A stretch of 33,140 bases of DNA from the IMG/VR virus record IMGVR_UViG_3300042400_001063, positions 1 through 33,140 of that record. One strand, written 5' to 3'. Made by a program: the position numbers and the translations under genes. How positions within the stretch are numbered: the first letter of the stretch is position 1; every line of letters starts with the position of its first letter. Of this stretch, positions 1-21,432 are shown piece after piece. The notes under the pieces were generated by a model, which saw nothing but the letters and a program-made list of their open reading frames with translations, was not told where the DNA came from and did no database searches. Source of the DNA: a virus.

Positions 1-131
1 GGTAGGAAATGTATGTCAAGCTTGCTATCTATGTTTTGTTTTTTTGCTTGTCTTTTTGTAAGAGGTACTCTTCTAGGATCGATCCATTTTGTACTAGGTC
101 TAAAAAACGGATACATTTCTTTTTTTAACAT
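1..131 (-). CDS. Hypothetical protein, N-terminal fragment cut by the window edge
   Basis: Only the first 43 codons are visible; the frame is still open at base 1. The protein begins MLKKEMYPFFRP and is basic, with a lysine/arginine-rich stretch (TKRQAKKQ) around residues 25-32. The start is well supported: AAAGGAG at 139-145 lies 7 nt before the ATG at 131-129. The ATG overlaps the stop of the sulfotransferase gene by 7 nt, so it is the next gene of the same minus-strand operon and probably translationally coupled. No family can be named from this fragment. Confidence 0.75.
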   Translation of the reverse strand, partial: MLKKEMYPFFRPSTKWIDPRRVPLTKRQAKKQNIDSKLDIHFL

Positions 132-1111
132 TCTAAAACTCCTTTATTTGTCATTATAAAATCATAAAGCTCAAAATCGTATTTATTAATTTCTATTATT
201 CTGTCTATTTGTTCTTTAGTTAGTATCTTTTTAATTTCTTCAGCAGCAAAGTCTGATTTGTTTTTTGTAACATTTTTTAAATCTGCTTTGTAGTCATTTT
301 TGTTTAAAATATTAGAAACTTTTTCCAAAAAAATATTTCTGTTTTCCACACAACCTATAACCTTAAAATTATTTAAACTTTCTTTCCATAACGATTCATT
401 ATTTTGTAAATCCATAAAGTTATAATTAAATGCTTGTGCGTTAATTAAATCAAACCTGGTTATATCATTATTTAAATATTTGTTTACCCAAAAAGAAGAC
501 AAGTCCGTATTTATGCTGGACGTCATTGTTCTTGTCTGATAGTTACTTATAGACTTTAAGTTACCCTCATCAGATAAAAAACTATCAAAATTTTTGCTAG
601 TTAAAGATTTTGTCCTAAATCCAAATACTGAATCTGCGACTTTGTATCTAAAAACAAAATGACTAATTGCCCTATCAACTGGATTTCTAACTATTGTTAA
701 ACCATTCAAATTCTTATTATTTTTTTGATATAGTAAAAACGGGAACATTGCAAAATGACCAGAAATTAATTTTGAATTTAACATATCCACTTCGTCTATA
801 TACTGCATGGTGTTAATAAAGTTTTGTTCGTTTAAAAAAACATTCTTTAACTCAGACAAAACTGCTATCCCAGATGTTTTTGGAATATGCAAAAAATAAA
901 AGCTTTCTTTGTTAGACTTAGTGTCCGTAGTCAGCCTTTTTATAAATTCCCCACCTTGAATCTTCATTCCATGCTCAAGGTCATTAAATTTTAAGTGTCC
1001 AATAGATGACGGATGAACAAATCCGCTAGTATACGCTTCATCTTTATAAATGCCCTCTATTTGAAATATATAATTTTCTGGATAAGGTATTCCATTTACA
1101 TAATTAGTCAA
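125..1111 (-). CDS. Sulfotransferase family protein (P-loop, PAPS-dependent type)
   Basis: A 328-residue protein from a TTG start at 1111. FYFLHIPKTSG at residues 71-81 is the 5'-phosphosulfate-binding loop of carbohydrate sulfotransferases. LISGHF near 115-120 fits the segment with the catalytic His. TIVRNPVDRAISHF at 139-152 is the 3'-phosphate-binding motif (R142, S150). Such enzymes move sulfate from PAPS to a sugar or other hydroxyl. A longer frame begins at ATG 1213 but lies over the upstream gene and has no ribosome site. The TTG has AGAGGAAG at 1118-1125, spacer 6, and overlaps the upstream stop by 8 nt, so I prefer it. The residues 36-120 that follow are hydrophilic, with no signal peptide, so a cytoplasmic enzyme is expected. 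The acceptor cannot be read from sequence; a virion or cell-surface glycan is an inference. Confidence 0.8.
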   Translation of the reverse strand: MTNYVNGIPYPENYIFQIEGIYKDEAYTSGFVHPSSIGHLKFNDLEHGMKIQGGEFIKRLTTDTKSNKESFYFLHIPKTSGIAVLSELKNVFLNEQNFINTMQYIDEVDMLNSKLISGHFAMFPFLLYQKNNKNLNGLTIVRNPVDRAISHFVFRYKVADSVFGFRTKSLTSKNFDSFLSDEGNLKSISNYQTRTMTSSINTDLSSFWVNKYLNNDITRFDLINAQAFNYNFMDLQNNESLWKESLNNFKVIGCVENRNIFLEKVSNILNKNDYKADLKNVTKNKSDFAAEEIKKILTKEQIDRIIEINKYDFELYDFIMTNKGVLEC

Positions 1112-1313
1112 CTTTATCTTCCTCTGAAGAATATGAAGGGGCAGGACCAAGTAAAAATCCTTGATCATGATACTCAACCATCTTAGAGGTTTTTTCGGAG
1201 CCAACAATTTCATTTGAAATCAAGCTTAGTAAATCATAAATTCTGTGAAGCATTATATAATTAACCATAGGAAGATTTTCTTCTATGTTCTGGCTTTCTG
1301 TACCCTCAGTCAT
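1104..1313 (-). CDS. Small hypothetical protein
   Basis: A 69-residue acidic protein with a central helix-like segment (MVNYIMLHRIYDLLSLISNEIV, about residues 16-37, two overlapping quotes of a single amphipathic stretch). Its C-terminus is acidic (SSEEDKVD). AAAGGGG sits just upstream of the ATG at 1313 and fits a ribosome site. It overlaps the upstream gene by 8 nt (ATGACTGA) and the downstream sulfotransferase start by 8 nt, so it is the middle link of a coupled operon. No family is recognised. It is a real gene by its ribosome site and overlaps, but the function is unknown. Confidence 0.65.
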   Translation of the reverse strand: MTEGTESQNIEENLPMVNYIMLHRIYDLLSLISNEIVGSEKTSKMVEYHDQGFLLGPAPSYSSEEDKVD

Positions 1314-2163: not shown

Positions 2164-3153
2164 ATGAATATATCGTTTTCCACAGTAATTGCTAACTTAA
2201 GAAGCAAAAACGGGTACGGCTACGCCTCAGAGAATATAGTTAAATCATTAAATAATCTAGGACACTTTGTTCCTTTTCAAGACCCAAAGTCTAAAGTGCA
2301 ATTAAACTTTTCACAACCTTCACATTTTAAGTTACATAAAAATCAATATCAGATTAGCTATACACCTTGGGAGTCAACTGTAATTCCAAATGAGTGGAAG
2401 TATTACATGGATGCATGCGATGAGATATGGACGACTTCTGATTGGTGTGCAAATGTATTTGAAGATAACGGATACAAAGTTTCAAAAGTTTATCCTCACG
2501 GAATAGATCCAATTTGGCAACCGTACAAAAGGCCAGACGATGGAGTAATAAAGTTTTTGCATATAGGAGAACCAGCGCCAAGAAAAGCTGGCCAAATGGT
2601 CGTAGAGGCATTCGTATCATTATTTGGAAATAATCCAAACTACTCTTTGACAATAAAAGCAGATCAAGTTAACACAACAAGAATTTTTAACAACTATATA
2701 GATAAAAATATAATAGGCTCTCCTGAAAAAATTTATTCAAACATTAATTTAATTACAGATGTTTTAAGTACTGAAGAGTTAGTTAGTCTTTACTACTCAC
2801 ACGATGTTTTAGTTTATCCTAGCTACGGAGAAGGTTTTGGATTTATACCGCTTCAAGCTCTTGCAACTGGAATGCCAACAATTTGCACAAGCGGATGGGC
2901 ACACTATGAAAAATATCTTGGGCCACTAAGATTAAAATCAAAGATTATAGATTCTCCATGGCCTTTTCCACATGAAGGAAAAGTTTTTGAGCCAAACTAT
3001 CAACATCTACTTGAAGTAATGAGAGATGTTTCTTTAAACTTTAAACCATATTCAAGTTATTACTATGCTCAAGCATCTAATATGCATAAAGAGTACAGCT
3101 GGGATCAGTTGACTAAGAATGCATTTAAAGACATATTCAAAAATTTTTCTTAG
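2164..3153 (+). CDS. GT-B fold glycosyltransferase (GT4-like)
   Basis: A 329-residue protein with the two-domain look of GT4 enzymes. The N-terminal half has a Gly-rich start (NGYGYASENIV) and ISYTPWEST. The C-terminal half has a nucleotide-sugar site, HIGEPAPRKAG at 133-143, and VYPSYGEGFGFIPLQALATG at 217-236. In the usual E-x7-E signature the first Glu is present (E223) but the second is Gln (Q231), which is unusual and might affect sugar-donor contacts. It is the first plus-strand gene after the divergent gap. No strong ribosome site is visible before the ATG (only a weak AAAGATA). It may glycosylate DNA, virion proteins or a surface polymer; donor and acceptor are unknown. Confidence 0.82.
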   Translation: MNISFSTVIANLRSKNGYGYASENIVKSLNNLGHFVPFQDPKSKVQLNFSQPSHFKLHKNQYQISYTPWESTVIPNEWKYYMDACDEIWTTSDWCANVFEDNGYKVSKVYPHGIDPIWQPYKRPDDGVIKFLHIGEPAPRKAGQMVVEAFVSLFGNNPNYSLTIKADQVNTTRIFNNYIDKNIIGSPEKIYSNINLITDVLSTEELVSLYYSHDVLVYPSYGEGFGFIPLQALATGMPTICTSGWAHYEKYLGPLRLKSKIIDSPWPFPHEGKVFEPNYQHLLEVMRDVSLNFKPYSSYYYAQASNMHKEYSWDQLTKNAFKDIFKNFS

Positions 3154-3236: not shown

Positions 3237-5171
3237 ATGTCACAAGTAATCAAAAACCCATACGAAAATTTTATTGCGTTATCACGATACGCAAGATGGA
3301 TGCCAGAAGAAAATCGTCGTGAAACTTGGGGAGAGACTGTAGATAGATATTTCATATTTATGCTTGACCACCTATTTAAAGAACACTCGTACGAGCCAGA
3401 CGCAAAGCTAGTTGAAGAATTAAAGTCTGCAGTGTTTAATAGAAGTGTAATGCCATCAATGCGATCTGTAATGACAGCTGGCGCTGCGCTAGAAAGAGAT
3501 AATGTTGCAGGTTACAATTGCTCATTTGTTCCAGTAGATAACCCAAGGTCGTTTGATGAAACTATGTATATTCTTATGTGCGGAACTGGCGTAGGGTTTT
3601 CTGTTGAATACAAATATGTTAATAAGCTACCTTCAATACCAGACGCATTTGAAAAATCAGATACGGTAATTGTTGTAGAAGATTCCAAACAAGGATGGGC
3701 AAAGGCATACCGTGAACTTCTTGCTTTACTTTGGACTGGACATATCCCAGCAATCGATGTCTCTAAAGTTCGTCCAGCAGGCGCAAGATTAAAGACAATG
3801 GGTGGTAGATCATCAGGTCCTCAACCACTTGTAAACCTTTTTGATTTTACTATTGCAAAGTTTAAGAACGCAGCAGGCCGTCAGTTAAAGCCAATTGAAG
3901 CGCATGACATTATGTGTAAGATAGGTGAAGTTGTTGTTGTTGGTGGAGTTCGCCGTTCAGCAATGATTTCTCTTTCTAATATTAACGATATTGAAATGGC
4001 TGCAGCAAAGTCAGGAAATTGGTGGGAGAACAATACCCAACGAGCATTGTCAAATAATTCTGTTGCTTACTCACGCAAGCCAGATATGGAGCAATTTATT
4101 GCAGAATGGAAATCTTTATATGATTCAAAATCAGGAGAACGAGGCATATACAATGTGGCCGCAGCTCAAGCCCAAGCAGCCAAGTACGGAAGAAGAGATC
4201 CAGATATACACTACGGAACTAACCCATGTTCAGAAATTATTTTACGTCCTTACCAGTTTTGTAACCTTTCAGAAGTCGTATTACGTGAAGAGGATACAAA
4301 AGAGGATATTGCAAAAAAGGTAAGACTAGCCACAATTCTTGGAACTTGGCAATCAACATTAACTGATTTTAAATATCTTAGAAAGATTTGGAAAGACAAT
4401 ACAGAAGAAGAGCGTTTGCTTGGAGTTTCTTTAACTGGGCAATTTGGACACAAGTTTATGTCTGGGAAACAAGACATAATTGCTTTAGAAGCCTACCTTA
4501 TGTCATTAAGAGAATATGCTCGTGAAACAAATAAAGAAGAGGCTGGAAAAATTGGGATTTCCGAGTCTGCAGCTATTACTTGCGTAAAGCCTTCAGGTAC
4601 AGTATCTCAATTGGTCGGGGTGTCTTCAGGAATGCATGCGTGGCATTCTCCATATTATATTAGAACTGTTCGTGGCTCAAAAGGAGATCCAATTTCGGTA
4701 TTTCTTAAGGAGGTTGGAATTCCAGTAGAAGATGATGTAATGAAACCAAACGAAACATACGTATTTTCATTTCCAGTAAAGGCACCAGAGGGTGCAATTG
4801 TTAGAAATGATTTGACGGCTATTGAGCATCTAAACATTTGGTTAGTCTATCAACGTGCATGGTGTGAACACAAACCTTCTATTACAGTTTCTGTAAAGGA
4901 AGACGAATGGATGGAAGTTGGAGCTTGGGTATATAAGCATTTTGATGAAGTGTCTGGAATTTCGTTCCTACCGCACTCAGATCACAGTTACAAGCAAGCT
5001 CCTTACCAAGAGGTAACAAAAGAAGAGTACGAAGAACTTGTTTCAAAAATGCCTCAAAGTATTAGATGGGAAGATTTATCTTTCTATGAGACAGAAGATG
5101 GAACTTCTGGAAGCCAAACATTAGCCTGCACTTCAGATGGAAATTGTGAGATTGTGGATATATCCGCATAA
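3237..5171 (+). CDS. nrdJ: Adenosylcobalamin-dependent (class II) ribonucleotide reductase, monomeric type
   Basis: A 644-residue enzyme that makes deoxyribonucleotides, probably from NTPs, for phage replication. The active site matches the Lactobacillus leichmannii class: C95 (YNCSFVPV) and C342 (QFCNLSEV) as the redox pair, C331 in NPCSEI as the thiyl-radical cysteine, and catalytic E333. The C331-C342 spacing of 11 equals that of the L. leichmannii C408-C419 pair. GGVRRSAMISLS (236-247) and VKPSGTVSQLVGVSSGMH (450-467) are class II blocks. A C-terminal C631/C637 pair (ACTSDGNC) would relay reducing equivalents. It is shorter than the ~740-residue L. leichmannii enzyme. It needs B12 from the host. 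The start has GGAGG about 12 nt upstream. It stands alone between a glycosyltransferase and the holin. Confidence 0.95.
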   Translation: MSQVIKNPYENFIALSRYARWMPEENRRETWGETVDRYFIFMLDHLFKEHSYEPDAKLVEELKSAVFNRSVMPSMRSVMTAGAALERDNVAGYNCSFVPVDNPRSFDETMYILMCGTGVGFSVEYKYVNKLPSIPDAFEKSDTVIVVEDSKQGWAKAYRELLALLWTGHIPAIDVSKVRPAGARLKTMGGRSSGPQPLVNLFDFTIAKFKNAAGRQLKPIEAHDIMCKIGEVVVVGGVRRSAMISLSNINDIEMAAAKSGNWWENNTQRALSNNSVAYSRKPDMEQFIAEWKSLYDSKSGERGIYNVAAAQAQAAKYGRRDPDIHYGTNPCSEIILRPYQFCNLSEVVLREEDTKEDIAKKVRLATILGTWQSTLTDFKYLRKIWKDNTEEERLLGVSLTGQFGHKFMSGKQDIIALEAYLMSLREYARETNKEEAGKIGISESAAITCVKPSGTVSQLVGVSSGMHAWHSPYYIRTVRGSKGDPISVFLKEVGIPVEDDVMKPNETYVFSFPVKAPEGAIVRNDLTAIEHLNIWLVYQRAWCEHKPSITVSVKEDEWMEVGAWVYKHFDEVSGISFLPHSDHSYKQAPYQEVTKEEYEELVSKMPQSIRWEDLSFYETEDGTSGSQTLACTSDGNCEIVDISA

Positions 5172-5180
5172 TGGTAGAAT
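5172..5180 (+). promoter_or_regulatory. Extended -10 promoter for the holin
   Basis: TG-G-TAGAAT (hexamer 5175-5180) begins one base beyond the reductase stop. It is about 31 bases before ATG 5212, with AAGGAG in between. A second AT-rich match (TATAAT) overlaps at 5182-5187, so the exact hexamer is uncertain. Confidence 0.4.
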
Positions 5181-5211
5181 ATATAATGGCGAAGGCCAAA
5201 AAGGAGATAAT

Positions 5212-5406
5212 ATGAATACATACACAGAACAAATACTAGCAGCCCTAGGAACTTATGGAAGAGCGTTTTTAGCAGCAGCGACAGCTCTTTATATGACTGG
5301 AAATACAAATCCAAAGGATTTAATTGCAGCGGGTGTCGCAGCAGTTGCCCCAGTTATCCTTAAGGCATTAAGCCCAAGCAATACAGAGTTTGGCTTTAAA
5401 AAGTAA
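5212..5406 (+). CDS. Holin, small two-helix membrane protein
   Basis: A 64-residue protein with two hydrophobic helices: about 6-27 (ILAALGTYGRAFLAAATALY) and about 34-52 (LIAAGVAAVAPVILKAL). A short polar turn (TGNTNPKD) separates them. The ending LSPSNTEFGFKK resembles the 'LNP-D--FG' tail of holins in actinophages. Holins form membrane lesions that time lysis. The frame extends upstream to 5137 inside the reductase gene, but ATG 5212 has AAGGAG at 5201-5206, spacer 5, and is the clear start. It lies apart from the lysozyme-like gene, which is on the other strand. Confidence 0.75.
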   Translation: MNTYTEQILAALGTYGRAFLAAATALYMTGNTNPKDLIAAGVAAVAPVILKALSPSNTEFGFKK

Positions 5407-5438
5407 AATAAAATAACAGTCAATTAGGATGGCTCCTG

Positions 5439-5475
5439 TGCTAAAATAGGCATAGGAGTTTTCCTATTTTAGGAG
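5439..5475 (+). promoter_or_regulatory. Leader with extended -10 and overlapping hairpins over the ribosome site
   Basis: TG-C-TAAAAT (5439-5447) looks like an extended -10. The same bases are the left arm of a perfect 10-bp inverted repeat, CTAAAATAGG (5441-5450) with CCTATTTTAG (5463-5472). The right arm runs into the ribosome site AGGAG (5471-5475). A smaller perfect hairpin, ATAGGA (5452-5457) with TCCTAT (5462-5467), sits in the loop and carries a second AGGAG. A transcript starting near 5454 could still fold CCTA/TAGG over the ribosome site. Confidence 0.5.
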
Positions 5476-5484
5476 ATTTTGCAA

Positions 5485-5835
5485 ATGGCAGTACAAAAGA
5501 ATTTTGAAGTAGATCAAAATGCTACTTTTACCTTTGAGGTCCAATACACCGCAGAGGACGAAGTAACACCGATAAGTTTAGTAAACTCAACTGCAAAAAT
5601 GCAGGTGCGTGATACTAAGGGTGGATCTAAATTAGCATTTACATTAACATCACCATCTGGTGGTATAACAATTGATGGTCCAACTGGAACACTAACTGTT
5701 AAGATGACACCTACTCAAACAAACAAACTCTTTTATCCAAAATCTTCTTATGACATTATGGTTGTCGATTCTAACGGGAATAAAATAAAACTCCTCGAAG
5801 GGTTTTTAACTCTCAGTAGATCGGTAACTATATAA
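5485..5835 (+). CDS. Tail/baseplate-type beta-sandwich protein
   Basis: A 116-residue, beta-strand-rich protein. The pattern (TFTFEVQY, STAKMQVRDT, GTLTVKMTPTQTNKL, YDIMVV, LLEGFLTLSRSVT) is that of small phage baseplate or adhesion modules of the BppU-N / Ig-like kind. That assignment is from pattern only. A TTG three codons... two codons upstream (5479) is only 3 nt from the ribosome site, so ATG 5485 with a 9-nt spacer is preferred. It opens the fibre-gene block and its stop overlaps the next ATG by one base. Confidence 0.6.
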   Translation: MAVQKNFEVDQNATFTFEVQYTAEDEVTPISLVNSTAKMQVRDTKGGSKLAFTLTSPSGGITIDGPTGTLTVKMTPTQTNKLFYPKSSYDIMVVDSNGNKIKLLEGFLTLSRSVTI

Positions 5836-6287
5836 TGTCAGAAAAAGTAATAGTAACAGAAGTAAAAAATAAAGTAATTGTAAAAACCCCAGGACCACAA
5901 GGTCCTGCTGGAAGAACAATATTAAACGGTACAACAGCCCCAGCAAATAATTTAGGTGTTGTTGGTGACTTTTATTACAACACAGTAACTACGGATTTTT
6001 ATGGTCCAAAGTTAACAGACCTATCTTGGTCTGGAGCAACAGTAATTAAGTTTATTCAAGAAGGTTCTGAGTATTCATATTCTACCTCTTGGGAACTCGC
6101 TCAAGTAACAGGCCCAGTGTCTGGAGTATATTCTGTAGTTCTTAACCACAACTTAGACTTTTTCCCAAACGTAACGGTTAAGGCTAGCTCTGGAGATATA
6201 CTTGAAACTGGAATAGATTACAATAATACAAATACAATAACACTGACTATGGCTCAACCATTTTCAGGGACAGCATACCTGTCTTAA
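5835..6287 (+). CDS. Small tail protein with a collagen-like turn
   Basis: A 150-residue protein. After a short beta lead it has GPQGPAG (about 20-26), a minimal collagen-like segment. Next comes the module GVVGDFYYNTVTTDFYGPK (about 41-59), then a C-terminal beta domain (SVVLNHNLDFFPNVTVKAS). Phage tail proteins often have this order: collagen-like trimerising stem, then a compact head. The 'YYNT' module recurs in the next genes, suggesting a shared origin. It is translationally coupled to the gene before it (TAATG). Confidence 0.6.
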   Translation: MSEKVIVTEVKNKVIVKTPGPQGPAGRTILNGTTAPANNLGVVGDFYYNTVTTDFYGPKLTDLSWSGATVIKFIQEGSEYSYSTSWELAQVTGPVSGVYSVVLNHNLDFFPNVTVKASSGDILETGIDYNNTNTITLTMAQPFSGTAYLS

Positions 6288-6302
6288 AAAGGAGAAGAAG
6301 AA

Positions 6303-7586
6303 ATGGCAAGAAAATATGCGGTCAGCTTAGACCTTAATAAGAATGAGTTGCTGAATGCGAGAGTTCAAAATCTAGGATCAGCACCATCAAACCCAGTAAC
6401 TGGTCAAATTTACTACAACAATGTTTTAAATGTTCTGTTTTTCTATGACGGAACAAACTGGATACCAACATCAGGATCTACAGAAGTAATTCAGGATGTC
6501 ATTGGGTCTTCCGTACTTGCAGGCACAGCACTTACTGCAACTTATGATGATGTAGCAGGAACAACAACATTAAAGCTCAACGACACAGCAGTAAATGCAG
6601 GATCATACGGATCACAAACAAAAATACCTACATTTACAGTAGACGCACAAGGTCGTTTGACAGCAGCAGGTGAAGTTGATGTCGCAACAGAACTTTCAAT
6701 AACTGGAGATACTGGAACTACATCTATTTCATTACTTACAGAAGGATTAACTGTAAATGGTGGAGAAGGCATCGATATTGATGTAACAGAAAATACAATT
6801 ACGGTATCAGCAGAAGATGCAACATATACCAATAAGGGTGTTGCTTCATTTGATTCAAATGATTTTACAGTTACAGCAGGAGCAGTATCTCTTAATAAAG
6901 ACCCAGTAATCACTCTTTCAGGAGATGTAACTGGTTCTGCAACAATGACCAATCTTGGAGATGTAACAATCTCAACTACTATTGAGCCAAACTCAGTAGC
7001 CCTTGGCACAGATACAACTGGTAACTACATAGCAACAATTACTGGAACAGCAAATGAGATTGAAGTAACAGGCTCTGGCTCAGAGACAGCAGCAGTCACA
7101 ATAGGTCTACCAGATAATGTTGAAATTACTGGAAACTTACAAGTTGGTGGAAACCTTAATGTAATAGGAACAGTAAACTCTGTAAATACCACACAAATTA
7201 ATATAGAAGACAACAAGGTAAATCTTAATAGCAACGCAACTGGAACCCCAATAGCCGATGCTGGAATTCTTGTTGAGCGTGGCGATGAGGCAGATGCTGA
7301 AATTCTATGGAATGAAACAGCAGATGTTTGGCAAATTGGTCAAGTTGGTGGAAACTATCACAATATTTCAAGAAAATATGCAACCACAATTGGTGACGGA
7401 TCAGCAACTTCTTATGCGGTAACTCATAACTTAGCAACAAAAGACGTTACAGTTCAAATATTTGAAAACAATGCAGATTATAATCAAATAGAAGCAGACG
7501 TACAGCACACATCAGACTCAGTTGTTACTGTAAAATTTGCAGTAGCTCCTACAGCTGGTGAATACAGAGTAGTTATAGTAGGATAA
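6303..7586 (+). CDS. Tail fibre protein
   Basis: A 427-residue, Thr/Val/Gly-rich, repetitive protein of phage-fibre type. The N-terminus has the shared module GQIYYNNVLNVLFFYDGTNW (about 35-54). The middle has fibre hallmarks: FTVDAQGRLTAAG, ITLSGDVTGS, NLQVGGNLNVIGTV, INIEDNKVNLNSNATG and ADAEILWNETADVWQIG. The last ~70 residues form a separate beta domain (YAVTHNLATKDVTVQIFEN...AGEYRVVIVG), probably the receptor-facing tip. Ribosome site AAAGGAG with an 8-nt spacer. The Cys-free, low-charge composition is normal for a trimeric beta fibre. Confidence 0.8.
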   Translation: MARKYAVSLDLNKNELLNARVQNLGSAPSNPVTGQIYYNNVLNVLFFYDGTNWIPTSGSTEVIQDVIGSSVLAGTALTATYDDVAGTTTLKLNDTAVNAGSYGSQTKIPTFTVDAQGRLTAAGEVDVATELSITGDTGTTSISLLTEGLTVNGGEGIDIDVTENTITVSAEDATYTNKGVASFDSNDFTVTAGAVSLNKDPVITLSGDVTGSATMTNLGDVTISTTIEPNSVALGTDTTGNYIATITGTANEIEVTGSGSETAAVTIGLPDNVEITGNLQVGGNLNVIGTVNSVNTTQINIEDNKVNLNSNATGTPIADAGILVERGDEADAEILWNETADVWQIGQVGGNYHNISRKYATTIGDGSATSYAVTHNLATKDVTVQIFENNADYNQIEADVQHTSDSVVTVKFAVAPTAGEYRVVIVG

Positions 7587-14709: not shown

Positions 14710-15357
14710 TTGTTTGAAAAATTAAAAAAAGCACATAGAATGGGCATTTCTGGTGCTAAATATTTTGATGGAAAACCTATACCAAGCTTTAGAAGGTATC
14801 CTAAGTATATAGAAGGAACCTGGGCTCAATACACTGTATTTACAGATAAAGGTAATTCTCAAGCAATAGAATGCTTGTATAAAAATACAGATAACGAGTC
14901 TGGCACTATTGTAATGTCTGGATTTATTAATAATGACTATCCAGTTTCATGGGCTACAATTATTATAGACGGATACGATAAAGATCATTATACTGCAATA
15001 ACAGATAGGTTTTATACAAGCCCGCTTCATAGAAAAAAGAAATATATGGAGTCTCTATCTCTTATTGGCTATCCAATATGGTGTAGTTTTTTTAATATAT
15101 TACCTAGACTTGGTCCAGGATATACCCAAGGCACACAAGCAGTAGCTTTAAGCGGATTAAATATGGTAGCAGCTTCAGCCAAAAAAAGGTTTAACTTGAC
15201 TGGCAAAAAAGCAGAAAAGGTAGTTAAGGGCGGGATGACTCCAGGAGAACTGCCACAGATAAATATGCCAGCAGACTTAGTAATATATAAAGACCCTGTT
15301 TTTCCTGCCCTGTTTCATTCCATGAGCGTTTGGGAGCCAAATGATAAAAAATATTAA
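14710..15357 (+). CDS. Hypothetical protein, first gene of the modification cassette
   Basis: 215 residues from a TTG start with AGGA 7 nt upstream. No family is certain. The centre (ATIIIDGYDKDHYTAITDRFYTSPLHRKKKYMESL, about residues 82-116, read in pieces) has the strand-then-basic-loop-then-helix look of an acyltransferase (GNAT) core, but I cannot see a full acetyl-CoA motif. The rest has a Gly-rich stretch (LGPGYTQGTQAVALSG) and no signal peptide. It follows the Hint-like gene by 12 bases, and the next gene begins inside its 3' end (17-base overlap). Confidence 0.5.
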   Translation: MFEKLKKAHRMGISGAKYFDGKPIPSFRRYPKYIEGTWAQYTVFTDKGNSQAIECLYKNTDNESGTIVMSGFINNDYPVSWATIIIDGYDKDHYTAITDRFYTSPLHRKKKYMESLSLIGYPIWCSFFNILPRLGPGYTQGTQAVALSGLNMVAASAKKRFNLTGKKAEKVVKGGMTPGELPQINMPADLVIYKDPVFPALFHSMSVWEPNDKKY

Positions 15358-15904
15358 TAACATAAACAATAAAACTTTGCTATCCGAATACAATAGAATG
15401 CTTGCGGAAATGCATGAGTATGTGTACAAGTTTAATCCTGGGCTAAAGCTTGGATTTAAGCCTAAAAAAGTATCACTAATTGATTATAGAACCTTTAACT
15501 TTTTTTCAATGTATAGTAGAAATATACATATTCTGTATAAAGAAATTAACGACATTGCAAAAGAATTTTGCAGAGAGTCAAATGTTAATTTTGAAAGAAA
15601 CTATTTTTACCTATTAGGGAATATAGTTAAAAACGAAACTGTTCCATTAAATACATATGTAAACTTTGCCCCAAACTATAAAACAACATTTGTAGGGTTT
15701 TATATATTGTCGTCAAATAACGATGAAATGTTTATTAATGATGAAAAAGTTGATCTAGTACCTGGACAATTAATATTCCTGGAGTCATCAGCAAAGATAT
15801 TATTTAATCAAATAAGCAATGATTTCGTAATGCTATCTTTTAATATTTCTCCCCTAGAGTATCTCTACAGACAGTACTATCAGAAATGGATACCGCTTTC
15901 ATGA
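15341..15904 (+). CDS. 2OG-oxygenase-like protein lacking its iron ligands
   Basis: 187 residues, clearly related to the intact oxygenase at 18079. Shared landmarks in order are DYRTFNFF / EYNVFQFY, ILYKEI / KLYKNI, VNFE, a G-x-N/F strand, GFYIL / GYYSV, ISPL / IVPL and the ending QKWIPLS / QHWIPLL. The metal motif WHDH of the relative is replaced by VNFA (107-110). The distal His and the 2OG-binding Arg region (GHPHAMG..., GPRVTIAY) are replaced by ISNDFVMLSF. So it is probably not an oxygenase. It may be a pseudoenzyme subunit or a binding protein. ATG 15341 has GGGAG at a 4-nt spacing and overlaps the previous gene by 17 bases. Confidence 0.65.
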   Translation: MIKNINNINNKTLLSEYNRMLAEMHEYVYKFNPGLKLGFKPKKVSLIDYRTFNFFSMYSRNIHILYKEINDIAKEFCRESNVNFERNYFYLLGNIVKNETVPLNTYVNFAPNYKTTFVGFYILSSNNDEMFINDEKVDLVPGQLIFLESSAKILFNQISNDFVMLSFNISPLEYLYRQYYQKWIPLS

Positions 15905-16617
15905 TTAATATAGAGTTTATTCCAAAATTTAGACTATATAGTAAGGTATTTCCAGAGCCAGTTAGTGTCGTATCGGCAATACCAGAGTGGTGGAAGTCAC
16001 AAGAAAGCCATTTAAATAATGATCAAAATGTCTATAGTGGAACAATGATGCTTACAGTTAAAAAATGTCAGTCGGTATTTGATGCAATGACATTCGGCTA
16101 CTACCTAAAGTGCCCAGCAGACATATCAATAGATGCAACAGGCGAAAAGCTACATGTTCAGCTAACTTCGGATATAATGGGAATGCAGCAACACCTTGTT
16201 GCAAACCATTTAAAAGAACAAATGGCCAAGTACCCGATACCAGATTACTTTCACCCAGAGGTTGTGAGGATACACCCAATGTGGTTGGTTCAAACAGAAA
16301 CAGGATACAGCTCTTTATTTGTTGCTCCTATGCACGGAGAAGATTCTCCTATCAAGGCGGTCCCAGGGGTAATAGATACAGACGAATATCCTTCTGATGG
16401 ATATTTATCTTTTTTTGTTAAAAAGGGATTTAAGGGAATTATTAAGCAGGGGACTCCAATTATGCAGGTCATTCCATTTAAAAGAGATGACTGGCAAAGC
16501 TCTATTAATAAAGAAAAAGATTCTGATTTTATGATAAAAGAAAAGAACTTAGGTGTAAGATCAGTTTTTCAAAATGGATACAGGATGAAGTTTTGGAAAA
16601 AGAAAACATATAAATGA
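15901..16617 (+). CDS. Conserved phage protein of unknown function (DUF6065-like), copy 1
   Basis: About 238 residues from ATG 15901, which overlaps the previous stop as ATGA; an ATG at 15886 is possible but has no ribosome site. It shares a long block order with the 17320 gene: IPEWWK / IPSWYK, K-C-x2-VFDAMTFGYY / FFDALTSGYM, then GYSSLFVAP / GYSLLITHP, GVIDTDEY / GIIDSDLW, and GIIKQGTPIMQVIPFKRDDW / GIIPKGTPIFQMIPIKREEW. The last block reads like a conserved ligand loop. I associate this pattern with DUF6065, but that needs checking. No catalytic triad is obvious. Part of the coupled cassette. Confidence 0.6.
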   Translation: MINIEFIPKFRLYSKVFPEPVSVVSAIPEWWKSQESHLNNDQNVYSGTMMLTVKKCQSVFDAMTFGYYLKCPADISIDATGEKLHVQLTSDIMGMQQHLVANHLKEQMAKYPIPDYFHPEVVRIHPMWLVQTETGYSSLFVAPMHGEDSPIKAVPGVIDTDEYPSDGYLSFFVKKGFKGIIKQGTPIMQVIPFKRDDWQSSINKEKDSDFMIKEKNLGVRSVFQNGYRMKFWKKKTYK

Positions 16618-17345
16618 GCACCAAAGTAATTAACAGGGTCCCATTCGAGTCAGAATCCTGGGGCTTGATGTCTAACATGAGCTTTGAGCAAATAGTTAAT
16701 TTTTCTAACCTTTTGCCAAAATGGAAAAATTGGTCATGTGTAAAAAACAATAAGGCATACAAGAAAGCAATACTTAAGCCAGTCAACATGTATGTTGCTA
16801 ATTTTTCAGATCCACCAGAAGTTATAAAAATTTCAGACACTCAGATTTATTTAAGATATAGTAACTATGCAGACATATTAATACAGATAGCAGACCCAAT
16901 GATGGGACACAAAGGAATATTTAAATCTAATCCAATAAATAGCTTGCTGTATGCTACGGATAAATGCTGGCTAAGACAGTTTTATCCATCTTCAAATATA
17001 TACAATATAGATAAAATAAACCCTATGTCCGATAGAGTTTTTAAAATGTTTATACCATGGTTTTTAGACATGGATATAAAGTATACGGTAAAAACAAACT
17101 TAGAAAATTCTTCTATTGTAGCAATAGAAAAAGAAGATTATTTTACAAAAACAAATGAAAATGTTATAATAAAAGAAGCTAATTTTGTTGATTTTTATTT
17201 TACAACATCTGATAAACATATGGAAGATAACATATGCGGTTTAATAAAAAGAGGATCTTACCTATTTGATATACAAATAGAATCTGATAGGAAAACAATT
17301 AAAAGAATTATAGGGGAGTATGAGAAAAAAAGAACTAAGGGTTAA
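16614..17345 (+). CDS. Unknown protein, possibly a divergent relative of its neighbours
   Basis: 243 residues. It starts with an ATGA overlap on the previous stop. It is rich in Lys, Ile, Asn and Tyr. LLPKWKNW (about 33-40) and the late GLIKRGSYLFDIQI (about 209-222) echo IPEWWK and GIIKQGTPIMQVI in the flanking genes, at similar places and in a protein of similar length. The middle has no clear match. It may be a fast-evolving third copy or unrelated. The downstream gene begins inside its last 26 bases. Confidence 0.5.
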   Translation: MSTKVINRVPFESESWGLMSNMSFEQIVNFSNLLPKWKNWSCVKNNKAYKKAILKPVNMYVANFSDPPEVIKISDTQIYLRYSNYADILIQIADPMMGHKGIFKSNPINSLLYATDKCWLRQFYPSSNIYNIDKINPMSDRVFKMFIPWFLDMDIKYTVKTNLENSSIVAIEKEDYFTKTNENVIIKEANFVDFYFTTSDKHMEDNICGLIKRGSYLFDIQIESDRKTIKRIIGEYEKKRTKG

Positions 17346-18078
17346 GTTCTCTCCAGCCTTCATTACAGACATAAACAGCTTTACAGACTATAGTTGTTTT
17401 AATGAACCACAAGAAGCAAAAAGACATATTCCTTCTTGGTATAAAAAACTATCTAAGTTTCATAAATCAAATAGTATTAGCAAGCTATACCCAGTAAATG
17501 ACAGAGGTACCGACGGAAGCGCAGCCTCGACAAAGCTATGTATGCCATTTTTTGATGCATTGACTTCTGGATATATGTACACCTTAGACTACGATCTTCA
17601 TGTAAGTCAAGATAAGAATGGCTTCCCAGTACTTTCTTGGGAAGGCGATAATATGATAGTAGATAAAAGATTGATGATAGATGTCCCAGTGCCCACCCAA
17701 CATCACCCAATGCATTATGGGTGGAAGGTTAACTGGTACTCAGAAACGCCAAAGGGATATTCTTTATTAATAACACATCCGTTAAATAGGCATGACTTGC
17801 CATTTACCACAATGAGCGGAATCATAGACTCAGATTTATGGCATACCCCAGTATTTACGTCCTTCTTCCTAAAACGCAACTTTATTGGTATAATACCTAA
17901 AGGAACTCCTATATTTCAAATGATTCCTATTAAAAGAGAAGAATGGTCTCTTGAAATAGATTATTCAAATGACAATATAGAGCAAAACCAAATCAAGGAC
18001 GAAAAAAGAAGATCTTTAATATATGCATATTATAAAAATATAATATGGCAACGGAAACAATATAGAGGGAAAATATAA
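17320..18078 (+). CDS. Conserved phage protein of unknown function (DUF6065-like), copy 2
   Basis: 252 residues and a clear paralogue of the 15901 gene (blocks listed there). It is closer to what I remember of the family: TKLCMPFFDALTSGY near 72-86, VNWYSETPKGYSLLITHPLN near 134-153, then TMSGIIDSD and GIIPKGTPIFQMIPIKREEW near 191-210. His-rich PTQHHPMHYGW precedes the middle block and might bind metal (inference). The ATG at 17320 has GGGG only 3-4 bases upstream and overlaps the preceding gene by 26 bases. Next gene follows with zero gap. Confidence 0.6.
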   Translation: MRKKELRVKFSPAFITDINSFTDYSCFNEPQEAKRHIPSWYKKLSKFHKSNSISKLYPVNDRGTDGSAASTKLCMPFFDALTSGYMYTLDYDLHVSQDKNGFPVLSWEGDNMIVDKRLMIDVPVPTQHHPMHYGWKVNWYSETPKGYSLLITHPLNRHDLPFTTMSGIIDSDLWHTPVFTSFFLKRNFIGIIPKGTPIFQMIPIKREEWSLEIDYSNDNIEQNQIKDEKRRSLIYAYYKNIIWQRKQYRGKI

Positions 18079-18723
18079 ATGGAAAATATGTATATGAACC
18101 AGCCAACAGGCAAAGAACATAAGTTTTTTGAGAGATACCTAGACAACGATCTCCCAGAGCTTGCAGAGTTTTTGCAAAATCAATATGCTAACATGGAAAA
18201 CCTTAAGTTGTCTGGAATAACAAAGGTTACGCCAAGAGATCACTGGCTATCATCCGATAGCGTGTCGACAATAAAATGGAGAGAGTACAATGTTTTTCAG
18301 TTTTATCATGAGTCTATTTATAAGCTGTATAAGAATATATCGGAAACTATTAAAGAAGCCTGTGAGTACTATGGTGTCAACTTTGAAGAGCAAAGATACA
18401 TGGTCCAGGGTTGGTTTAATATTAATTACAATCATAGTGGCAAGCTTGATTGGCATGATCACGGTGGCCCTTATGCCCCCTATTTTCACGGTTACTATTC
18501 GGTAAATGCAGAGCCTTCAACTACGTATTATAGCGTTTTTGGAAACAAAGTAGAAAATCATAACAAGAATAACAGAATGATTATCTCGGAAATGGGACAC
18601 CCACATGCAATGGGAGACTGGGACTGGGAAGGCCCTAGAGTAACTATTGCGTACGATATAGTTCCACTAAAAAGCTTAATTGCCAATAAAGCAGAACCAC
18701 AACACTGGATACCATTGCTGTGA
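18079..18723 (+). CDS. 2-oxoglutarate/Fe(II)-dependent oxygenase
   Basis: 214 residues, with a double-stranded beta-helix core. Metal ligands are likely H126 and H128 or D127 (KLDWHDHGGPYAP). FHGYYSVNAEPSTTYYSV is the following strand pair. GHPHAMGDW supplies the distal His (H174 or H176), and GPRVTIAYDIVPL the 2OG-binding Arg (R187). It resembles the phage 'putative 2OG-Fe(II) oxygenase' family with an HxH/HxD site (PF13759-like). It would hydroxylate an unknown substrate. It has a non-catalytic-looking relative at 15341. Ribosome site AGAGGGA; the next gene starts as GTGA on its stop. Confidence 0.8.
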   Translation: MENMYMNQPTGKEHKFFERYLDNDLPELAEFLQNQYANMENLKLSGITKVTPRDHWLSSDSVSTIKWREYNVFQFYHESIYKLYKNISETIKEACEYYGVNFEEQRYMVQGWFNINYNHSGKLDWHDHGGPYAPYFHGYYSVNAEPSTTYYSVFGNKVENHNKNNRMIISEMGHPHAMGDWDWEGPRVTIAYDIVPLKSLIANKAEPQHWIPLL

Positions 18724-19538
18724 CAAGCACTATTGGAATTTGTATATACTCATATCAAAATAAAAAGCTATTAGACTTAATAGAAGAAATAAAAGAAAAG
18801 TCTAGTAAAAAGAATATTTTGTATTTCTATGTCATAGACCAAAACAATTTGGATAGAACAAGAGGTTTTGCCGAGCCAGAATCTTATCACTCTACTTCAT
18901 ACAACTATGTTAAATGGGACTCAATTAAAAGCCCAATTGAGTATAAGCAACAGGCATTAAATATTTTAAATAAAACATATTATATGCAGGTTGAAGATGA
19001 CTTGAGCTTAATACAAAATTGGGACGAATATGCAATAGATTTCATATCAAAGAATAAAAATTCAATTCTAACTGGAAACTCTACTGTCTCGTTAAAGAAT
19101 AAGAACTGGTTCCATTTATCAGCAACAAGAACACCATCAAAAGAGTTTAATGAGATAAAATATATAGATAGAAATTTTCTATTTGGACTTACTGAAGATT
19201 TTAAAAAGATAGAGTATCCTAAATACTTAAAATATAATGGAGAAGAAGAGTCTATCTCGATAGATATGATAAATAATGGTATAAAGATGTATAACTTCCC
19301 AGACGAGTATTTATCTATACATAGATCTGATCTAGAAAAAGAATATACACCGTTTTCTTTAAACCATAATTATAATAAATTTGTTGATCTGTATAAGGAT
19401 GAGGTCAAAAAGCATTTTGGCTTAGACATAGAGCAATTGCCGTTTGAAGATAACGATGTTGCGTATGACCCAGCTCAATCTCAAACTGATAAAATTGGCG
19501 GCTTAAGATATATTAATAAAGTTAAGGAGCTTAGGTAA
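18720..19538 (+). CDS. GT-A type glycosyltransferase (GlcNAc-transferase-like)
   Basis: 272 residues from a GTG start overlapping the preceding stop by 4 bases. An N-terminal TIGICIYSYQNKK strand is followed by LYFYVIDQNN. YYMQVEDDLSLIQNWDEY (87-104) contains the acidic E92-D93-D94 metal/nucleotide-sugar site with the 'xQxDxxxxxxxxWD' layout of the PF11397 GlcNAc-transferase family. The rest is Lys/Asn/Tyr-rich. It probably attaches a sugar to a hydroxylated protein or glycan. That fits its place between oxygenases, which can create hydroxyl acceptors. The donor is unknown. Confidence 0.65.
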   Translation: MTSTIGICIYSYQNKKLLDLIEEIKEKSSKKNILYFYVIDQNNLDRTRGFAEPESYHSTSYNYVKWDSIKSPIEYKQQALNILNKTYYMQVEDDLSLIQNWDEYAIDFISKNKNSILTGNSTVSLKNKNWFHLSATRTPSKEFNEIKYIDRNFLFGLTEDFKKIEYPKYLKYNGEEESISIDMINNGIKMYNFPDEYLSIHRSDLEKEYTPFSLNHNYNKFVDLYKDEVKKHFGLDIEQLPFEDNDVAYDPAQSQTDKIGGLRYINKVKELR

Positions 19539-20080
19539 TGTTAATAAAAATAGTAGAAGACTTTATAACAGAAGAAGACGCAAATGTTTTAATCAATGAG
19601 ATGAAGAGGCCGTCAGAGATAAACGAGTATCCATCATACTATAAAGATAGAAACGGCGGTACTGCCTTCCCTTATAACAAAACAGTTATGTCGCTATTAA
19701 AGAAATATGCAGTCGATGCAAATAGGATACAGAAAGAATTTTTTGAATTAGAAAAAGATGTAATTGTTACAAAAGCTTTTGGTTCATTCTGGAATCCTGG
19801 CCAAAGTGGAGCACCACATATTGATGCGATAGAAAAAGAGCCTTTTATCGAATACAGCGCTGTGATATATTTAAATGATGAATATGAAGGCGGAGAGATT
19901 TATTTTCCAAGACAATCTTTTGAGCACAGGCCAAAGAAATACTCAGCAATATTTTTCCCAGGCAATAGTTTTAACTATATTCACGGGGTAAAAGAAATAA
20001 CAAGTGGTAATAGATTCACGGCTCTTTATATGCAATCTACAAAAAAAGAGTTCATGGATCCAGATTTTGAGGGGTGCTAA
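19538..20080 (+). CDS. Prolyl 4-hydroxylase-like 2OG-Fe(II) oxygenase, copy 1
   Basis: 180 residues. HxD is H94-x-D96 (GAPHIDAIE). The DSBH core reads EYSAVIYLNDEYEGGEIYFP (105-124). Distal H149 is in FNYIHGVKEI and R159 is in TSGNRFTALY. This is the textbook P4H arrangement (PF13640-like). Such enzymes hydroxylate prolyl or other side chains using 2OG, O2 and Fe(II). It starts one base inside the preceding gene's stop. Whether its substrate is the PFGFT or GPQGPAG prolines of the fibre block is a hypothesis. Confidence 0.85.
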   Translation: MLIKIVEDFITEEDANVLINEMKRPSEINEYPSYYKDRNGGTAFPYNKTVMSLLKKYAVDANRIQKEFFELEKDVIVTKAFGSFWNPGQSGAPHIDAIEKEPFIEYSAVIYLNDEYEGGEIYFPRQSFEHRPKKYSAIFFPGNSFNYIHGVKEITSGNRFTALYMQSTKKEFMDPDFEGC

Positions 20081-20734
20081 ATGAATTACGAAGAATTAGC
20101 TTTAGGGGCAGTTTATTATAAAAACATAATAGATAACCCAGCAGATTTAATTAACAAAATAGAAGACCTAGAAGAAAAAAGAAGTAATGCTGATTCCTAT
20201 AGATCTGAATCTGTAAAGCCATGGCAGGCATGGGACTATGACCATGGTAATAAAGAAAAAACAGTTTTCTGTTGGCAAAAGTTTTTACCAAAGCCAGAAG
20301 ACATTCAAAAAACAGATTTGTTTTACCAAGAACAATTTGAAATATCTTCAATCCTTTTCGATGGACTAGAAAAAGGTCTGCAGCATTATTTCTCTTTATA
20401 CCCATACGCAGAAAAGAATATTAAGTCTAGAGAAAAAACAATGCATCTTTTAAAGTATAAAGAAAGTGGATTCCTGCCAGCACATTCTGATCATGGAATA
20501 AGTAGTAGAGTCTTGTCTGCTCTTTTGTATTTAAATAATGATTATGAAGGTGGAAATATTAGATTCCCTCACGCAGGCATAGACATCAAGCCAGAAGCTG
20601 GAAGCCTGCTGTTTTTCCCTTCAAATTTTGTATACGTTCATGAAGTAGACGCAGTTACAAGCGGAACAAGATACTCTTTGCCAAACTGGTACCACAATAG
20701 AAAAAACGCATACTACTCAGACGGGACAGAATAA
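20081..20734 (+). CDS. Prolyl 4-hydroxylase-like 2OG-Fe(II) oxygenase, copy 2
   Basis: 217 residues with the same core as the gene before it but a longer N-terminus (about 120 residues of helix-rich sequence). HxD is H135-x-D137 (PAHSDHG), then LSALLYLNNDYEGGNIRFP (145-163), distal H187 (VYVHEVD) and R197 (TSGTRYSLPNW). The matched 'LND/NDYEGG' and 'TSG-R' strings show the two genes are homologous. Both keep all ligands, so both should be active. Zero gap to the preceding gene (GGGGTGCTAA-ATG). Confidence 0.85.
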   Translation: MNYEELALGAVYYKNIIDNPADLINKIEDLEEKRSNADSYRSESVKPWQAWDYDHGNKEKTVFCWQKFLPKPEDIQKTDLFYQEQFEISSILFDGLEKGLQHYFSLYPYAEKNIKSREKTMHLLKYKESGFLPAHSDHGISSRVLSALLYLNNDYEGGNIRFPHAGIDIKPEAGSLLFFPSNFVYVHEVDAVTSGTRYSLPNWYHNRKNAYYSDGTE

Positions 20735-21432
20735 TGTTTATAGTTACAGGGTCTAGCAGTGGTATGGGCAATGCAATTGTTAATAGGCTTTTAAAGAATG
20801 GATACGAAGTTTCAGGAATATCTAGAAACATACCAAAAAGCGGTTCACCGTTTAAAACCTATCAAGCAGACGTCTCAGATAAAAAAGCAATTAACGAAAT
20901 TGCAAATGAAATAAAATCTCAAGGCATAACGGTTAGCGGTTTAATAAATTGTGCTGGGCTGGGACAAGATTTCTTTACTGCTGATTGGACTAAGATGTCA
21001 GCTGAAGAAATTCAATCATTGTTTGGGACAAATATTATTGGTGTTATAAACACCTGTCAAGCATTTATACCTCTTATGAATAGAAAAGTTCATACACCAG
21101 TTATAAATATAAGTAGCCTAGCTGCTCATTCAAATTCAGAAATTTCTGTTTACGCAGCAAGCAAATATGCGGTAAAGGGCTATACAAGATCTTTGGCTAA
21201 GGTTTTAAGAGAGACATCAATTAGAGCAAACTGCATAGCACCAGGCATGATTAGGACAGAGATGACAAAGCACCTTTCTGATGATACATTTAACAGAATA
21301 CTATTTGGCTCTGGACAAACATTGAGCAATAAGATATTTACAACAGAAGACGTCTGTGACGTAGTAGATATCTTGATTGATCAAAAATCAAACAGTCTAA
21401 CTGGACAGACATTTCACGTGGGCGGATACTAA
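20734..21432 (+). CDS. Short-chain dehydrogenase/reductase (SDR)
   Basis: 232 residues with the full classical SDR set. TGSSSGMG (5-12) is the NAD(P) Gly motif, NCAG (72-75) the NNAG equivalent, ISS (126-128) the catalytic Ser, and YAASK (140-144) the Tyr/Lys pair. PGMIRTEM follows the active site. It probably oxidises or reduces a sugar or hydroxylated group with NAD(P)H. Starts as TAATG on the preceding stop, last of the coupled cassette. An apparent leaderless promoter follows, so transcription can restart for the LamG gene. Confidence 0.88.
   Translation: MFIVTGSSSGMGNAIVNRLLKNGYEVSGISRNIPKSGSPFKTYQADVSDKKAINEIANEIKSQGITVSGLINCAGLGQDFFTADWTKMSAEEIQSLFGTNIIGVINTCQAFIPLMNRKVHTPVINISSLAAHSNSEISVYAASKYAVKGYTRSLAKVLRETSIRANCIAPGMIRTEMTKHLSDDTFNRILFGSGQTLSNKIFTTEDVCDVVDILIDQKSNSLTGQTFHVGGY

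Follow-up and report, generated by a model that had tools for sequence, protein, structure and literature searches.

Adjacency of a sulfotransferase and a cytochrome P450 in viral contigs

Our analysis revealed a putative PAPS-dependent sulfotransferase gene (STF) and a cytochrome P450 gene that lie side by side in viral contigs, and we are highly confident that together they form a real cassette. The DNA that was analysed, referred to below as the window, is a 33,140-nucleotide metagenomic viral stretch with a GC content of 37%. It carries on its minus strand the whole of STF (125-1111, 328 aa) and the first 43 residues of the P450 (3-131, minus strand), which runs off the window. As far as sequences can tell, both genes have kept their catalytic motifs whole, evolve under purifying selection and are constantly adjacent. 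The initial annotation had proposed a glycosyltransferase as the partner of STF, but the constant partner proved to be the P450, cut off by the window end.

Profile scans of the viral collection reported 22 loci with the P450 and 21 loci with STF. STF adjoins the P450 in 22 of the 23 distinct viral contigs that carry a full-length P450 of the same clade, a count of records and not of independent events, as some of the contigs are near-identical. Every STF contig with room for a P450 has it, and the three STF contigs that do not include a full P450 (the window, L003 and L125) all end in or just behind STF. L101 has the P450 and no STF detectable by HMM, and therefore the P450 can stand alone. 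Two gene orders were found: orf71-orf69-STF-P450, as in the window, and orf71-STF-orf69-P450, as in L102-L107 and L020. The pair persists where STF is as little as about 30-33% identical to that of the window, and where the P450 is as little as 38% identical to the L002 protein. Between L018 and L019 the P450 and the ribonucleotide reductase (RNR) are 97% identical and the glycosyltransferase (GT) is 95% identical, while STF is only 56% identical. By this comparison STF alleles appear to have been exchanged, and the two genes are not always inherited as one allele; the same two loci suggest that selection favours change in STF while the P450 stays.

The start codon of STF

The initial annotation had placed the STF start at a TTG codon, backed by a ribosome binding site and an overlap with the preceding gene. 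Both are present: the Shine-Dalgarno-like AGAGGAAG (1118-1125, minus strand) lies six bases ahead of the TTG, and the STF start overlaps by eight bases the small conserved orf69 (1104-1313, minus strand; phrog_12271). At the other end of the gene, the STF stop overlaps the ATG of the P450 (129-131) by seven bases. The mechanically called open reading frame begins farther upstream, at an ATG at 1213. Over the 102 nt between this ATG and the TTG, substitutions relative to the window hit codon position 2 of STF in 12 of 13 cases in L008, 11 of 15 in L007 and 13 of 13 in L003, and the single one in L006 does so too; in the frame of the upstream 69-aa ORF, this is the wobble position. Downstream of the TTG, in the comparison with the same relatives, substitutions shift to STF positions 3 and 1. 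Because the substitution phase across relatives switches frame at the TTG (1111), we take it to be the true STF start, as had been annotated. The upstream ATG was ruled out, since the substitutions preceding the TTG follow the orf69 frame. The codon at the TTG site is GTG in L012 and ATG in L120.

Family, motifs and predicted fold of STF

The proposed identity of STF as a sulfotransferase was supported by its family match, its motifs and its predicted fold. The window protein matches Pfam Sulfotransfer_2 (PF03567) with an E-value of 4.2e-7 and 30.8 bits, above the gathering cut-off of 22, and it also matches PHROG 3347, which is named galactose-3-O-sulfotransferase. The STFs of L018 and L020 reach 24.9 and 36.7 bits, respectively, that of L102 only 13.7 bits against the same cut-off, and that of L104 had no Sulfotransfer_2 match in the Pfam scan. 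The two PAPS-binding motifs, described as intact in the initial annotation, are present in the window and their key residues are invariant in 16 aligned relatives: K78, S80 and G81 in the 5'-PAPS motif HIPKTSG (869-889, minus strand; residues 75-81), and R142, D146, R147 and S150, as well as P144, in the 3'-phosphate motif RNPVDRAIS (662-688, minus strand; residues 142-150). His119 of an ISGH sequence (755-757, minus strand), likewise invariant in the 16, is a candidate catalytic base. In an HMM alignment to heparan-sulfate 2-O-sulfotransferase (HS2ST) that is weak, with an E-value that is not significant, it falls under the second His of HGH, and RNPIDRAISYF falls under IRDPIERLVSYY. The second His of HGH is the catalytic base in HS2ST.

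The AlphaFold model of STF (pLDDT 90.4, pTM 0.90) has a sulfotransferase-like fold. Using VIA-align, we found it closest to HS2ST (4ndz, 3f5f; Z 16.4, rmsd 3.1 over 214 residues, 14% identity), followed by heparan 6-O-sulfotransferase (Z 14.1), and the remaining rows listed had Z scores of at most 9.7, so that the HS2ST score stands well clear of the next group. Among the VIA-align rows listed, STF did not come out close to protein-tyrosine sulfotransferases. A Foldseek search of the PDB gave no match at E <= 0.001, its best being 1.7e-3.

The dN/dS of STF was 0.08-0.35, and 0.55 in one near-identical pair, by a counting method in which synonymous sites are saturated in distant pairs. A tblastn search with the window STF found no match among 50,697 phage records. 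Among cellular genomes, 396 from Actinomycetota gave three weak matches (E 9.5e-8 to 1.8e-6), and a search of three genomes gave one, in a Chloroflexota genome (E 7.5e-10); none fell within the 80 cellular P450 loci.

Other small proteins that resemble sulfotransferases and bear PRSGS(T/S) motifs are encoded on the contigs of L002 (9469-10197, minus strand), L008 (10350-11042), L018 (10423-11115) and L130 (17335-17901, minus strand). Their matches to Pfam Sulfotransfer_1/3 are weak and below the cut-off, and the L002 copy has no Pfam match; STF phages may carry several sulfotransferases. A catalase gene (Pfam E 1.2e-91) was also recorded at L130 14571-15845, on the 115-kb contig of L008.

The cytochrome P450

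As the window holds only 43 residues of the P450, membership in the family was judged on complete relatives. The window fragment is 91% identical to the P450 of L002, whose STF is 92% identical to that of the window. The L002 protein is complete (475 aa) and matches Pfam p450 with an E-value of 1.6e-67 and 228.7 bits, the cut-off being 22.8. The motifs AGFE(S/T)T, ETLR (ExxR) and RKCIG are intact, with ExxR and the Cys heme loop invariant in 14 aligned relatives, and dN/dS by the counting method was 0.05-0.07 in well-diverged pairs and 0.18 in one near-identical pair. The structural model of the P450 (pLDDT 72) is weaker than that of STF. Its top structural matches (Z about 34) are CYP102A1 and CYP46A1, enzymes with fatty acids and sterols as substrates, but these neighbours say little about the substrate of the phage P450, because all P450s have one fold. 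The top NCBIfam scores are those of terpene oxygenases, every one of them below the cut-off.

The phage P450s form one clade. The closest cellular P450s found, which showed 35-38% identity when searched for, belong to Actinomycetota, and a 28-row tree with limited sampling and long branches unites the two groups at 100/100. At the Actinomycetota loci of the nearest P450s (L239-L242) we saw neither a sulfotransferase nor a clear pathway, only conserved neighbours, in a search run without a positive control and with simple ORF calling, which is unreliable on DNA of 71-74% GC. With no STF seen nearby, the nearest cellular P450s give no hint of a shared pathway. As for a phage-encoded electron donor, neither Fer4_15 nor Fer2 ferredoxins were found on 20 contigs.

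The phages and the variable slot that holds the pair

The order of GT, RNR, portal, protease, major capsid and adaptor genes in the window is stanwilliamsviridae-like, as judged by gene order, and it resembles that of Streptomyces phage Evy (Stanwilliamsviridae), in which an endolysin gene, a divergent GT and then RNR, portal, protease and capsid genes follow one another. Based on this order and on the similarity across GT, RNR, portal, protease and capsid, we place the window as a distant AT-rich relative of Evy. No STF or P450 is annotated within the 22 kb of Evy that were examined. WhiB, which serves as an actinophage marker (PMC6802176, PMC10202952), was searched for on 16 contigs. It is encoded on two of them, the 115-kb contig of L008 and the 82.6-kb contig of L012, and had no match on the other 14, including the window fragment and the 84.5-kb L019 contig. 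The Evy-like gene order, the nearest cellular P450s in Actinomycetota and the two WhiB genes suggest an actinobacterial setting.

STF and the P450 are preceded on the minus strand by orf69, by orf71 (1306-1521), a second small ORF conserved in relatives, and by a lysozyme-like/transglycosylase gene (SLT_3; 1527-2084, Pfam E 1.3e-11), the first gene of this leftward operon. On the plus strand follow the divergent GT (2164-3153), identified by Pfam, PHROG and comparison with Evy, and the RNR, another core gene (3237-5171; PHROG 367, E 1e-188). The GT beside RNR is a core gene that is shared with Evy and with many relatives that yielded no STF. At its usual place no GT homologue was found in the STF-P450 contigs L020, L104, L105, L106 and L107, which are fragments that could carry a GT elsewhere. 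As several contigs with the pair have no GT at the usual place, its standing as a specific partner of STF is weakened. The earlier suggestion that STF modifies a surface sugar together with the GT is therefore retained in part: the fold resembling heparan sulfotransferases keeps a glycan acceptor in play, while the partnership with the GT loses ground.

Gene content across relatives places the STF-P450 pair in a variable enzyme slot behind the lysozyme-like gene of some stanwilliamsvirus-like actinophages, which are large and AT-rich. We searched for sister phages by RNR and examined the best 80 RNR loci among the matches listed. Of these, 35 were retained, namely L154, L177 and 33 loci that extend 2,600 bases or more past orf69. 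Among the matches listed, one of these 33 sister loci has the pair. This is the unbiased estimate, and three of 35 would overstate the frequency of the pair in the slot, because L154 and L177 were admitted for their visible pair. Other enzymes were found in or near the slot. L200 has a GT61 glycosyltransferase (5954-7090, minus strand) between orf71 and orf69, the position of STF in the second gene order; L171 has a TylF-like methyltransferase with a 2OG oxygenase; and a tryptophan halogenase (Pfam E 1.1e-102) lies next to the slot of L162, on the other strand (4839-6335). In a Pfam scan of ten ORFs from the sister loci, four had no match. A slot with differing tailoring enzymes suggests that some component of the host is chemically altered by these phages.

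Elsewhere in the window, behind the tail-fibre genes, about ten small overlapping genes (14710-21432) encode two phrog_7084 paralogues, 2OG-Fe(II) oxygenase-like proteins and an SDR, several of them having no family match. This region had no nucleotide match in the phage collection.

A possible oxidation-sulfation cassette and its alternatives

We propose, with about as much doubt as confidence, that STF and the P450 after it make up a two-gene oxidation-sulfation cassette whose overlapping genes are translated as such. In the infected cell, the P450 would draw on a host ferredoxin to hydroxylate a hydrophobic host molecule, which may be a lipid, a quinone, a carotenoid or a lipid-linked glycan. 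With PAPS as donor, STF would sulfate the hydroxyl so formed or one close to it. This would give an envelope compound with a negative charge, which could alter host physiology or block competing phages. That the two enzymes act on one acceptor we consider an evenly balanced proposition and no stronger, because the HS2ST-like fold favours a sugar or sugar-lipid acceptor; the closest folds of STF are glycan and not lipid sulfotransferases, and this counts against a joint substrate. More tentative still is a specific form of the proposal, for a lineage of uncultured actinophages: a self-contained P450-STF module would attach a charged, sulfated group to a membrane lipid, a quinone or a carotenoid of the host. 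It would be one of several interchangeable cassettes for tailoring secondary metabolites, along with the GT61, the O-methyltransferase with its 2OG oxygenase and the halogenase nearby, for which the genome reserves a slot. If true, the virus would be chemically remodelling the envelope or the respiratory chain of its host. Three of 20 contigs encode an APS-kinase-like domain fused to a cytidylyltransferase-like domain (L130 13527-14282; L128 1498-2253), and homologues occur in Stenotrophomonas, Xanthomonas and Clavibacter phages. Given these homologues in other phages, phage-made PAPS was not counted as a part of the cassette.

The same fold evidence fits a different account, that STF sulfates a glycan, either a host surface or a virion sugar, and that the P450 is an unrelated neighbour with another substrate. 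The two heparan sulfotransferases top the structural matches of STF by a wide step in Z (16.4 and 14.1 against at most 9.7), the matches to Sulfotransfer_2 and to PHROG 3347 agree with a sugar acceptor, a GT61 takes the place of STF between orf71 and orf69 in one sister phage, STF alleles are swapped while the P450 remains, and L101 retains the P450 without STF. An adjacency that holds in 22 of 23 contigs over deep divergence is harder to reconcile with unrelated neighbours, and the neighbouring GT is found in many relatives without STF, and no homologue turned up at its usual position in L020 and L104-L107. On balance we regard this account as a possible but minority reading.

Two other accounts seem improbable to us, and about equally so. 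The pair could modify phage proteins, for instance by hydroxylating and then sulfating tail-fibre residues, as one of several tailoring enzymes near tail genes. The 2OG-Fe(II) oxygenases and the SDR just behind the tail-fibre genes of the window would suit this, as would the 2OG oxygenases and the methyltransferase in the slot of sister phages, but cytochrome P450s usually act on small hydrophobic molecules and STF is not close to protein-tyrosine sulfotransferases among the rows listed. Alternatively, STF and the P450 could inactivate a host defence metabolite or an antibiotic in a phase I/phase II arrangement. P450 oxidation followed by sulfation is the classic order of detoxification, the slot varies among sister phages as host-specific arms-race genes would, and STF alleles differ on near-identical backbones; against this, nothing in the window or the contigs points to a defence metabolite, and we know of none for these hosts.

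Comparison with known systems

The closest parallel to the cassette that we propose is CYP128A1-Stf3 of Mycobacterium tuberculosis, which hydroxylates and then sulfates menaquinone-9 to yield sulfomenaquinone (PMC7404182). Common to both systems are a P450 and a sulfotransferase side by side and an actinobacterial setting; unlike CYP128A1-Stf3, the pair reported here is phage-borne and its STF is of the Sulfotransfer_2 type. The CYP128 signatures ETWR and FGSGIHLCPG (PMC7404182) differ from ETLR and F(G/S)EG(S/N)RKCIG in the main clade of phage P450s, and by these P450 signature motifs membership of the phage P450 in CYP128 was ruled out. We read the phage pair as possibly working like CYP128-Stf3 but lying outside that family by its P450 signature. 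HS2ST shares with the phage STF the fold, the PAPS motifs and the aligned histidine, and differs from it in sequence (14% identity) and in that the phage protein adjoins a P450.

Each of the two enzymes has counterparts among viruses. Sulfotransferases are phage cargo in PHROG 3347 and in Synechococcus and OM43 phages, as in the window, and the report on the latter terms their role in phages unclear; the sulfotransferases of the OM43 contigs are Sulfotransfer_3, whereas the window STF is Sulfotransfer_2 (PMC10580990). P450s are known in Mycobacterium phage Adler and in giant viruses, and the accessible part of the report describes them in very few phages before, mentions no sulfotransferase partner and, as here, recognises no viral redox partner (PMC9405906). 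The Adler P450 shares only 21% identity across 84% of the query. Phage P450s and phage sulfotransferases were known singly; we found no description of a phage P450-sulfotransferase pair in the open-licence literature, a coverage that leaves out most subscription journals and preprints. The conserved pair allows a concrete hypothesis of two biochemical steps and points to a product that could be sought. A partial P450-like match (31% identity over 38% of the query) was also recorded in the unannotated record of Pseudomonas phage Y1 (OQ572403, 46583-47113), which may be contaminated or chimeric.
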